The notes under the pieces were generated by a model. The model worked only from the letters and a program-made list of their open reading frames with translations, made no database searches and was not told where the DNA came from. A DNA stretch of 38,356 nt, from NCBI GenBank assembly GCA_001629255.1, contig LURZ01000036.1, positions 1-38,356 on the forward strand, read 5' to 3'. A program made the translations under genes and the position numbers. Each line of letters opens with the position of its first letter. The stretch's first letter is position 1. Below are positions 35,037 to 38,356 of this stretch, piece after piece. The DNA comes from Marine group II euryarchaeote REDSEA-S42_B7 (GTDB taxonomy: Archaea; Thermoplasmatota; Poseidoniia; Poseidoniales; Thalassarchaeaceae).

Positions 35037-36791
35037 CTATGATATTGGATCAGGGATTATCCTGTATATTGCCTCTAAGTCAATCTCTCCGGCTTGAATT
35101 GGGGATTTAATTCCGAAAAAGCCGCTTACTTTCGGGTCAATCTCTCCGAACTCCCCAATCTTCTCTTCTTGAATAAAAACATGGCTCCCCCTTCCACTTA
35201 TCCAAGGTCCATCCTCAGCATCTGTCGGTCTGAATTCAACATCATCTTGAATCGCCCCCATGTCCCTAAGTAAGGCCTGTACAATTCCCTTTGAAGAAGT
35301 GAATCCACTGCCTACTTCTGCACATGCCCAAGCCGCTCGCAGGAAGTTCTTCGAATCTCGAATGACGTCTCCAAGTTCGTAAACCCTCTGTGGTAGCTCA
35401 TGGTGGCGATTTGCTGCAAGCAGGCTTAGTAGCGAGGGTAGGACATATTGTCTTAGCAGAGTGTGATCTGATGTTATTGGATTTGCAATCTCTGTAACGT
35501 ATCCTTCATTCGGCCATCTAACATTTTCGAACTGGTCTCTTTCGTTTGAAAGAGTCAGGCTCTGCACCTCTTGCAGACCGCACGCCCTCAAGCTTTCGCC
35601 AACTCTCCTCTTTAGATTAGAGCTCTTCAATGGCAGCGCATCAAGATGTGTCGTAGAAAGCTTCAGTGGAAGATTCTGGAAACCGAAACCTATTGCGATA
35701 TCTTCCACAATATCAACTGGGTGCATGATGTCGCTCCTCCATCGAGGCATTTTGATTAGATGCTCAACCTCTCCAACTACGCAGTCCGACCACCTCCCCC
35801 TCTGGTTTGGACCATCTGTAACAGTGCGACTTCCTTCTAATGTGCCGCCCATTTTTTTGATTGAGGATGACAATTCTTCTGAGGCCAATTTTATTCCTAG
35901 AATTTTCTCAATAAGACTGTCGGGAACTCGATGAGTTATGGCTTCTCCTTTTGGAGACAAATACTGCTCTCCATCTGTATCATTTAGTTGGATACTCTCA
36001 ATCTCTCCTCCTCTCTCAGACATAGATAGACAGACGAGAAGTAGAGATGCTTCACACGCTCTTCTGTCCCAACCCGTCACATCGATGAAAAAGTCAGTCG
36101 TCTCCTCGCTTACTGTAGTGTGACTACCATTGATTATTGGTGGGAATGATAGCACCTTATCGTCAGAGTCCAGAATTATCGGGAATTTGTTAAGATCCTG
36201 CACGAGATGGGCATATTCAATTCCCTTAGGATGGTGTGTAAGTATTTTCTCAATACTCATCTCCTCCATACTAGCGAGAGGAGTGAAGGAAAATCCTGAC
36301 GACACAGTTGTTACTCGAAATGGAGGTCTCAGCGTACTAAGATCATGGACTCCAATCGAAGCGAATCTTCTCTTTCTCCCAAGTGTCATATGCAACTTTT
36401 CTTGATGATCCATCAAACTCTGAATGAAATCTCCCTTTTCCTCAGAATTAGCACCAGTATTTACGGCTCTAACAACTGCACCAACTACAACAGGCCTCAC
36501 AGTCGCCAGTTCGGAATCAACTGTGAGAGAAATTTCGCCTGTTGTCACAGCCATGTCTGGTTCTTCCTCACTTAGACAAAGGAATGACCTGGATGCCCTA
36601 CTCATTGTCTCATGACTAAGTAGGTCTGGACGATCGGGAAAAACCTCCACTTCTACAGACTGTTCGTCATTTCTATCAACGGGGCAACCAATGTCGGGGA
36701 GCCAATCTGACCATTCTTCCCATCGGTGGTCAATTCCATTGATTTTCTGCACAAATTCGAGAATAGAGTGTTTGAAGTCCAAGGTAGGCAT
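35037..36791 (-). CDS. pheT: Phenylalanyl-tRNA synthetase beta subunit, archaeal type
   Basis: 584 residues, the usual archaeal/eukaryotic length and shorter than the bacterial form because it lacks the N-terminal EMAP-like and C-terminal ferredoxin-like parts. The conserved VEVFPDRPDLLS is at about 48-59. The B3/4 editing-type domain and the B5-type region (HRVPDSLIEKILGIKL) follow, with MPRWRSDIMHPVDIVEDIAIGFGF in the family position and the catalytic-like C-terminal domain at the end. It pairs with PheS (not in this window) as an alpha2-beta2 enzyme. It starts 4 nt after the preceding minus-strand gene, so the two are probably co-transcribed. Confidence 0.96.
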   Translation of the reverse strand: MPTLDFKHSILEFVQKINGIDHRWEEWSDWLPDIGCPVDRNDEQSVEVEVFPDRPDLLSHETMSRASRSFLCLSEEEPDMAVTTGEISLTVDSELATVRPVVVGAVVRAVNTGANSEEKGDFIQSLMDHQEKLHMTLGRKRRFASIGVHDLSTLRPPFRVTTVSSGFSFTPLASMEEMSIEKILTHHPKGIEYAHLVQDLNKFPIILDSDDKVLSFPPIINGSHTTVSEETTDFFIDVTGWDRRACEASLLLVCLSMSERGGEIESIQLNDTDGEQYLSPKGEAITHRVPDSLIEKILGIKLASEELSSSIKKMGGTLEGSRTVTDGPNQRGRWSDCVVGEVEHLIKMPRWRSDIMHPVDIVEDIAIGFGFQNLPLKLSTTHLDALPLKSSNLKRRVGESLRACGLQEVQSLTLSNERDQFENVRWPNEGYVTEIANPITSDHTLLRQYVLPSLLSLLAANRHHELPQRVYELGDVIRDSKNFLRAAWACAEVGSGFTSSKGIVQALLRDMGAIQDDVEFRPTDAEDGPWISGRGSHVFIQEEKIGEFGEIDPKVSGFFGIKSPIQAGEIDLEAIYRIIPDPIS

Positions 36792-36795
36792 TAAT

Positions 36796-37725
36796 TCACC
36801 CTAGTTCTAACCACATTTTCAGCGGACGTTCATACCCCACAAGCCTCAGTCCGGATATTGCAGCAGTATCATAGTCATTGGCTCTGAGATTCCTCCTTCC
36901 AATCCTATCTATTCGATCAACCCCTATATCTCTCATCCAACCCCGTATTTCCTTTCCTAGAACCTCAATCTTTGAATCCACGTTCCCACCCATGTAAGGA
37001 GAAACTATAGCAGTACAGCCAGATGCTACAGCGATTAGCATATCCTTGGCATCCGGTTCAAAGTCGATCTCCAACATCACGAACTTACCTGTCTCACTAA
37101 TTCCCATTGCCTTCGATGCAAGGCCAATCTTCGGTAGGGAAGACGCAAGTCTTGAACCACTGGGAGTTGAACAGATAACTACTGCACCGTCTAGTTCCAA
37201 GTCCATCACCAATCTGAACACTCTCTCAATTCTGTCAATCCTTCCCCTAAGCAGAATTATCGCGTTATTATCCATTCTACTCCTCATAGAAATCAGCATA
37301 GCCTCAATTTCTGAGTCATTAAGACCGGGGAAATCAGTAATATCCAAAATTATTCCTGAACAATTTCTAACGAAGTCTATTGACTCTGCGAACTCCTTCT
37401 TACCCACCAGAAGCAGGTCATTAGTCCTCGTTCTAGAGCGAACAATTGCTGGAGCTACAACCTCGTCCCATTCTTCCGAACCCAATGTAGTCTGGCAGCT
37501 AATTAGCCAGGGAATTTCAAGTAGCGTGCCTTCTGAATCAGAGTCACTTTGCACAAGAAGAGTATAGTGATCCAGTATTGCATTATCTGCAAGAGAGTCC
37601 TCATTAGGGTGCAAGGAAATCTTCTCAAATCCTTCTAAGATTGAGCACTCCAGGTGTCTATCTCCCTTGTGGATTATCTCTCCCGGTTCTAGAACCAAAG
37701 CATCATCATTTAGCTCAAGTCCCAT
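36796..37725 (-). CDS. Divergent glutamate-synthase-like FMN (TIM-barrel) domain protein
   Basis: 309 residues from ATG 37725. The longer reading from 37863 would overlap the preceding gene by 149 nt; the shorter start overlaps by 11 nt, typical of coupled genes. The C-terminal half resembles the glutamate synthase central domain: ISETGKFVMLEI, an AVASGCTAIVSPYMGG strand-loop, then WMRDIGVDRIDRIGRRNLRAND, like the family's GvxxxxexxGRxxL end. The Cys cluster that ligates the 3Fe-4S centre in active enzymes is not seen, nor a clear GEGG motif. Position after a GXGXG-domain gene matches the archaeal order of split glutamate synthase genes (established knowledge). The assignment rests on this context plus weak motifs, so an altered reaction or a non-catalytic role is possible. 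Confidence 0.6.
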   Translation of the reverse strand: MGLELNDDALVLEPGEIIHKGDRHLECSILEGFEKISLHPNEDSLADNAILDHYTLLVQSDSDSEGTLLEIPWLISCQTTLGSEEWDEVVAPAIVRSRTRTNDLLLVGKKEFAESIDFVRNCSGIILDITDFPGLNDSEIEAMLISMRSRMDNNAIILLRGRIDRIERVFRLVMDLELDGAVVICSTPSGSRLASSLPKIGLASKAMGISETGKFVMLEIDFEPDAKDMLIAVASGCTAIVSPYMGGNVDSKIEVLGKEIRGWMRDIGVDRIDRIGRRNLRANDYDTAAISGLRLVGYERPLKMWLELG

Positions 37726-38230
37726 AGGTTCTAGGATTTTTGAGAACTCTTTGATTTCTGATTTCTTTATCGATCTCATTTCCAGACATTCTAGATCCAA
37801 GGTAATCTCCTGCATGTCCTCTGACCAACAAGATTCCTCCTTCCATGGCAGAACCCGTTTCACTACCAGAAGAGCCTTGGATGGTTATCTCCCCCCCTCG
37901 CATCCCAAATCCAGCTTTATTTCCTACATCCTTCTCAACCACGGTCTTTCCTTTGACATGGAATGCCGCTATCATCGATCCAGTACTTCCTCTAAGAGTT
38001 AGCGTCCCTCCTCTATTAGCGGCTCCTACAAATGGCCCTAGATTGCCCAGGCATAGTACCTTGGCCCCTTCCGGAAGGTGTGTTAGCACGCCAAACTCTC
38101 CATCCTTTGGCCTCTCGTCTCCGGCTCTTCCCCATCCAATTTTCACTGGCCTGTCTTGCTCGAGAGCCTGCTCAACGTATCTATCCAGATCTCTATTGAG
38201 TTTCATACTCTTGATTGCCAACTCTTTCAC
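37715..38230 (-). CDS. Glutamate-synthase-like GXGXG domain protein (domain 3)
   Basis: 171 residues from GTG 38230. The start MKELAIKSMKLNRDLDRYVEQALEQ matches the family's opening helix, and a run of eight G on the minus strand (38237-38244) lies 6 nt upstream as a ribosome-binding site. The longer reading from ATG 38317 would overlap the preceding gene. Repeats of the form GG-x-[ILV]-x-[ILV]-x-G form the single-stranded right-handed beta-helix (NRGGTLTLRG, MRGGEITIQG, MEGGILLVRG, each followed by an SGS/HAGD-like turn). The same fold occurs in formylmethanofuran dehydrogenase subunit C, but the N-terminal helix and neighbour favour the glutamate synthase type. It is shorter than usual (about 230-250) because the last turns are missing and the protein ends in a basic tail. 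Confidence 0.8.
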   Translation of the reverse strand: MKELAIKSMKLNRDLDRYVEQALEQDRPVKIGWGRAGDERPKDGEFGVLTHLPEGAKVLCLGNLGPFVGAANRGGTLTLRGSTGSMIAAFHVKGKTVVEKDVGNKAGFGMRGGEITIQGSSGSETGSAMEGGILLVRGHAGDYLGSRMSGNEIDKEIRNQRVLKNPRTYGT

Positions 38231-38236
38231 TTTGGT

Positions 38237-38244
38237 CCCCCCCC
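38237..38244 (-). promoter_or_regulatory. G-tract ribosome-binding site of the GXGXG gene
   Basis: Eight consecutive G on the minus strand, 6 nt before GTG 38230. It can pair with the CCUCC of the 16S 3' end through G:C and G:U pairs and supports this start. Because it precedes the start codon, length variation would change translation rate rather than reading frame. Confidence 0.45.
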
Positions 38245-38279
38245 TTTGTAATACTCTGTAATCAGAAGGAGGCGACCCA

Positions 38280-38356
38280 TTATTGACTCTTCCCGAATTC
38301 GCTATGTTCATAGGCATCCTTCAGACTAGGAACTCCATAGGCAATAACATGGGGAA
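38280..38356 (-). CDS. 3' end of an upstream gene, probably glutamate-synthase amidotransferase domain
   Basis: The last 24 sense codons (PHVIAYGVPSLKDAYEHSEF...) and TAA stop of a gene continuing past the window edge. The frame is open to the edge and the stop lies 49 nt before the GXGXG gene's start. In archaeal and glxBCD-type operons the class II amidotransferase gene precedes the GXGXG gene, so that is the likeliest identity, but too little is visible to confirm it. Confidence 0.4.
   Translation of the reverse strand, partial: PHVIAYGVPSLKDAYEHSEFGKSQ

Follow-up and report, generated by a model that had tools for sequence, protein, structure and literature searches.

A near-universal GXGXG-barrel gene of Ca. 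Poseidoniia, interrupted in one assembly and probably encoding a flavin-free relative of GlxC-GlxD

The analyzed window is a stretch of 38,356 nucleotides, which constitutes an entire contig of the 1.19-Mb genome (70.8% complete) of Marine group II euryarchaeote REDSEA-S42_B7. At its right end two open reading frames (ORFs) of 200 and 355 aa are located upstream of pheT (Table 1). The first-pass annotation interpreted this region as a split glutamate synthase (GltS) cluster, composed of a partial upstream gene, a short GXGXG protein and a barrel-like protein devoid of 3Fe-4S cysteines. A PF01493 match and alignment confirmed the presence of a GXGXG protein and, after it on the minus strand, of a barrel-like protein lacking these cysteines. 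The partial upstream gene does not exist, since the terminal segment is intergenic and in relatives a divergent GAPDH gene lies just beyond the window edge; GAPDH and pheT are the conserved neighbours identified.

Table 1. Features distinguished at the right end of the window.
Feature	Coordinates	Strand	Remarks
Intergenic/promoter region	38231..38356	.	Divergent GAPDH starts just past the window edge in relatives
N-terminal half of the gene (to residue 149)	37784..38230	-	GTG start at 38230, N-terminal helix, loop KIGWGRxGDExPK, GXGXG beta-helix; aligned to intact 513-aa homologues
Deletion junction	37782..37783 (about)	-	107 bp of relatives missing, frame shifted; DNA alignments and genus-wide BLAST
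C-terminal half: degenerate GltS/GlxD-type barrel and tail	36796..37782	-	Stop at 36796-36798; homology, HHalign, AlphaFold/Foldseek
Conserved tail motif of the C-terminal half (Poseidoniia)			RRNLRAxDYDTAAISGLRLxGYxRPLxMW
ORF as first read, 200 aa	37715..38317	-	29 non-conserved upstream codons, 149 native codons and an out-of-frame end
ORF as first read, 355 aa	36796..37863	-	From GTG 37863; native coding only from about 37782
pheT (phenylalanyl-tRNA synthetase beta)	35037..36791	-	TIGR00471, 1e-120; 4 bp downstream of the gene; same arrangement throughout MGII

By its named relatives, the genome belongs to Ca. Thalassarchaeaceae (MGIIb, Poseidoniales). In the nearest relatives a single 513-aa gene spans both ORFs; the nearest homologues include those of REDSEA-S11_B3N4, REDSEA-S43_B8 and single-cell genomes such as AG-457-A01. 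DNA alignment to these relatives revealed that the window copy alone has a clean 107-bp frame-shifting gap, with flanks that are otherwise nearly collinear. A BLAST search of 28 genomes of the genus found about 105-107 bp between the halves in all seven relatives that match both sides of the junction. Microhomology at the junction amounts to 2 bp ('GA'), without a long flanking repeat. The final GXGXG repeats and the linker are deleted, and the last ~22 residues of the 200-aa ORF are out of frame. The shortness of the GXGXG protein, noted at first pass, is thus genuine in the window ORF but is a product of the break, not a native trait. The assumption of two separate genes is contradicted by the single ORF of the relatives and by the missing 107 bp; a split archaeal GltS operon was likewise rejected, as the alignment identifies one gene, broken in the window. 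The predicted start at 38317 extends the ORF spuriously upstream. Just upstream of the conserved GTG start there is a run of eight G, which varies between relatives.

The protein encoded by the 355-aa ORF is matched in 57 of 60 genomes of the same family, mostly within open frames longer than 500 aa, and the gene is unbroken at 131 of 134 Thalassarchaeaceae loci (excluding the window's own, and with some genomes contributing two loci). Broken frames also occur at the other three (L048, L062 and L201; ~2%), possibly reflecting assembly errors, so isolated breaks represent a background in these draft assemblies. The dN/dS values (Nei-Gojobori, window versus closest relatives) were 0.09-0.15 for the N-terminal part, 0.10-0.14 for the C-terminal part and 0.07-0.11 for pheT. 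The low values in both halves indicate strong selection until very recently, and therefore either a very recent break or an assembly error. As judged by sequence comparison, the two predicted ORFs are halves of one gene broken by a deletion. With the gene intact in relatives and the gap confined to the window, this copy is best read as either a broken allele or the result of mis-assembly.

Residues 56-176 of the intact protein form a GXGXG beta-helix. PF01493 scored above the gathering threshold in the intact homologue (45.1 bits versus a cut-off of 32.5; E 1e-11) and below it in the broken window copy (24.6 bits; E 2e-5). Among solved structures, FwdC and then GltS are nearest to this part, and its best-scoring known relative is FwdC/FhcC, formylmethanofuran dehydrogenase subunit C (TIGR03122, 2e-18; PDB 5T5I, 1e-23). 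Membership in the FwdC family was rejected (66.6 bits versus the TIGR03122 cut-off of 130.65), and, unlike FwdC, the Poseidoniia protein carries an unrelated extra barrel domain. The C-terminal ORF of the window has no Pfam or NCBIfam match, and the FMN barrel family PF01645 is matched in neither the window nor the intact homologues in the Pfam search. Although the C-terminal ~310 residues have no family match, the AlphaFold model is confident (mean pLDDT 89, pTM 0.87). Foldseek paired the model with FMN-dependent and related barrels (flavocytochrome b2, hydroxyacid oxidases, IMPDH and GltS), and its first domain with FwdC. The TM-scores were moderate (0.3-0.39 by query length), because the query comprises two domains.

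Column entropy in 50 MGIIb sequences was 0.64 bits for a loop at residues 28-53, 0.53 for the tail (480-510) and 1.08 for the GXGXG part; the barrel body, at 1.65 bits, is the least conserved. Part of the loop is modelled with low confidence (residues 35-37 below pLDDT 50). Loop and tail are our best candidates for the working surface, for which the barrel may serve as a scaffold. The family profile was matched in 144 of 146 genomes of the class (MGIIa, MGIIb and MGIII), including all 34 that are at least 90% complete; MGIII members are more divergent than those of MGII. The MGIIa and MGIII labels of the surveyed families are presumptive. No publication describing this protein family was found among the titles and abstracts consulted.

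Alignment with A. brasilense GltS and Rhizobium GlxD revealed that the motifs DGG/EGG, (S/G)R(Y/F)G(M/V), GQGAKPGGGG, GGIRSGAD and LGADAVAIGT, which we take to bind FMN in GltS, are absent from the Poseidoniia proteins. The 3Fe-4S segment (CxxxxxCxxxxC) is wholly missing from the Poseidoniia rows; its cysteines (A. brasilense 1102/1108/1113) presumably ligate the cluster. FMN and the 3Fe-4S cluster are the cofactors of GltS (PMC8097209). The family alignment proposed as a check by the first-pass annotation thus found neither set of ligands intact, in agreement with its suggestion that the redox machinery has been lost. Its key argument, the missing cysteines, fared less well: they are truly missing, but this alone is weak evidence of degeneration, because they are likewise missing from Rhizobium GlxD, in which the FMN motifs DGG, SRYGM, GQGAKPGGGG, GGIRSGAD and LGADAVAIGT are kept. 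It is the loss of the FMN site that indicates degeneration of the barrel. The C-terminal domain is accordingly classed as a shortened GltS/GlxD-type barrel devoid of FMN motifs and 3Fe-4S cysteines. This degeneracy is class-wide, and it is borne out by the confident AlphaFold model and, as described below, by a graded series in other Thermoplasmatota and an HHalign match. Since both sets of elements are lost, there are strong grounds to consider the intact protein unable to run the glutamate synthase half-reactions.

Homologous GXGXG and barrel proteins were found with the same profile search in other classes of Thermoplasmatota, both as two-gene forms (L210, L212 and L217) and as fusions (L214, L222, L215 and L216). 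Several of them keep PF01645, FMN motifs and/or cysteines, unlike the Poseidoniia members, which keep none. PF01645 is matched by L212 (3e-72) and L214 (1.6e-48), both with cysteines, by L210 (1.7e-44), without cysteines, and by L222 (5e-11); it is not matched by L217 or by the tested MGIII proteins. The L210 barrel (L210:6200-7483), which has a GXGXG partner, represents an intermediate state, with several FMN-type motifs kept and the cysteine cluster lost. All these proteins share with Poseidoniia a C-terminal tail of the form LRAxDxDxAAxTGxxLxGYxxxLPMW (or close to it), which contains the motif GxxLxGYxxxLPMW. An HHalign comparison of the Poseidoniia C-terminal domain with the Thermoplasmatota barrels gave a match of 98.3% probability (E 1.8e-14) that is confined to the second half of the barrel. 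No significant match was obtained with the true Poseidoniales GltS barrel. The graded loss across Thermoplasmatota suggests that several independent decays may have occurred.

Adjacent Rhizobium genes encoding a GXGXG protein and an FMN-binding glutamate synthase cover 97% of the fused L214 protein in alignment; they come after a glutamine amidotransferase gene, i.e. in the glxBCD arrangement. Together with the PF01645-positive homologues, this upholds the part of the earlier assignment that linked the locus to glxC-glxD, but not the split operon. As in rhizobial GlxC-GlxD (glxBCD) and in MgsB-MgsC, a GXGXG protein precedes a GltB2-type barrel, and as in Rhizobium GlxD the 3Fe-4S cysteines are missing and the C-terminal tail is related. 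Unlike these systems, the Poseidoniia protein is one chain with a shortened barrel, has lost the FMN motifs and has no GlxB/MgsA amidotransferase alongside. MgsA, MgsB and MgsC are, respectively, a GlxB-type amidotransferase, GltB3 and an FMN-binding GltB2, encoded in the operon mgsABC-gmaS (PMC6237917). Neither mgsA nor gmaS neighbours are present in the loci examined. The GltS alpha subunit (Azospirillum 1EA0/2VDC; Synechocystis Fd-GltS) has the same domain types, GXGXG and FMN barrel; it differs in its amidotransferase, FMN, 3Fe-4S cluster and reversed domain order, in which the barrel precedes GXGXG.

A true three-gene GltS cluster is patchily distributed in the family, at another locus. 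In some Poseidoniales (L085:4598-10010 and equivalents in L084-L103) it comprises a true FMN/3Fe-4S barrel of 441 aa, an amidotransferase-GXGXG fusion of 859 aa and a second barrel of 503 aa, which matches PF01645 only weakly and has the motif CVGCLRC in its N-terminal part. Several members of the window's genus do not have the cluster. Orthology with the gene described here was rejected, as both occur in the same genomes at separate loci and HHalign gave no significant match. The window's own genome was searched for another glutamate synthase, also proposed at first pass, and yielded no PF01645 match, which at 70.8% completeness is no proof that GltS is absent; glutamate dehydrogenase is encoded on contig C21. 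Judging from gene content, species without GltS presumably make glutamate by glutamate dehydrogenase.

In all 138 MGII loci where both genes were found, pheT follows on the same strand, with a spacing of -60 to +150 bp in 129 of them (most commonly 9 bp). The partner in MGIII is an upstream idsA (polyprenyl synthetase), at a gap of 3-42 bp in four of five loci, and in other Thermoplasmatota classes it is aspS or hutH. In the MGIII loci L218, L219, L220 and L225 two genes of the same strand directly precede it, one of Nudix type that probably encodes an IPP isomerase, and idsA. A GXGXG-barrel gene stands beside a histidine ammonia-lyase-like gene in L222:4149-7571 and L224. No common pathway is evident from partners that differ by lineage (pheT, idsA, aspS, hutH). 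An amidotransferase was identified neither among the annotated neighbours in the loci examined nor as a domain in the protein.

Several alternative readings were considered. The lineage might carry two genuine separate genes, a real split pair of the glxC/glxD type; the window does contain two ORFs, and two-gene forms exist in other Thermoplasmatota classes (L210, L212, L217). Given that near relatives all have one ORF, that the break takes 107 bp including GXGXG repeats and linker, and that the upstream half ends out of frame, we regard this as extremely improbable. It is also very unlikely that the locus encodes a functional glutamate or N-methylglutamate synthase, of the glxBCD/MgsABC type but operating without Fe-S. 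The domain order is that of GlxC-GlxD and Rhizobium GlxD equally lacks the cysteines, but GlxD's FMN motifs are absent and no amidotransferase is among the annotated neighbours. The N-methylglutamate-type chemistry put forward at first pass is not supported, on these same two points.

An ordinary pseudogene, no longer needed in the window's species, seems rather unlikely. The frame-shifting deletion, with its 2-bp microhomology and without a long repeat, looks like a real one; however, further damage was not seen, both parts are under selection like pheT, and 3 of 134 other family loci are also broken. Another reading is a repurposed enzyme, whose barrel lost FMN and gained a new substrate site and reaction. 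Strong purifying selection and the two hyper-conserved segments speak in its favour, and the invariant loop, with residues 35-37 modelled at low confidence, could be a substrate lid; the altered barrel might bind a new ligand or cofactor. Against it, conservation is lowest in the barrel body, a catalytic motif was not recognised and the operon partners vary by lineage (pheT, idsA, aspS, hutH); we consider this reading unlikely.

It is most probable that the window carries a recently broken or mis-assembled copy of a near-universal Ca. Poseidoniia gene, whose intact form is a GlxC-GlxD-derived, flavin-free pseudoenzyme under selection. The product of the intact gene is a fusion of ~513 aa, joining a GXGXG beta-helix of the GlxC/GltB3/FwdC type to a shortened GltS/GlxD-type TIM barrel from which, as its sequence shows, the FMN-binding and 3Fe-4S elements have been lost. 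Such a protein would most likely have a structural or ligand-sensing function, with the invariant N-terminal loop (28-53) and the C-terminal tail (480-510) as its predicted working surface. In MGII it probably shares a transcript with pheT, as the conserved close spacing suggests. We tentatively hypothesize that fusion of a GlxC-GlxD core, together with the loss of FMN and Fe-S, gave rise to a new kind of protein with a binding or regulatory role, near-universal and apparently single-copy in marine groups II and III. This role, possibly connected with PheRS or amino-acid status, would rely on a new N-terminal loop and the old C-terminal tail.

To our knowledge, marine group II has no cultured representatives, and most of its proteins are uncharacterised. 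These organisms outnumber all other planktonic archaea in surface waters (PMC6461757). A conserved GltS/FwdC lookalike without a redox site could mislead reconstructions of nitrogen assimilation, and the 'split' gene of the window is a warning, as the break is limited to one assembly. The family provides a clear case of stepwise cofactor loss in a redox enzyme, with intermediates still present in related classes.
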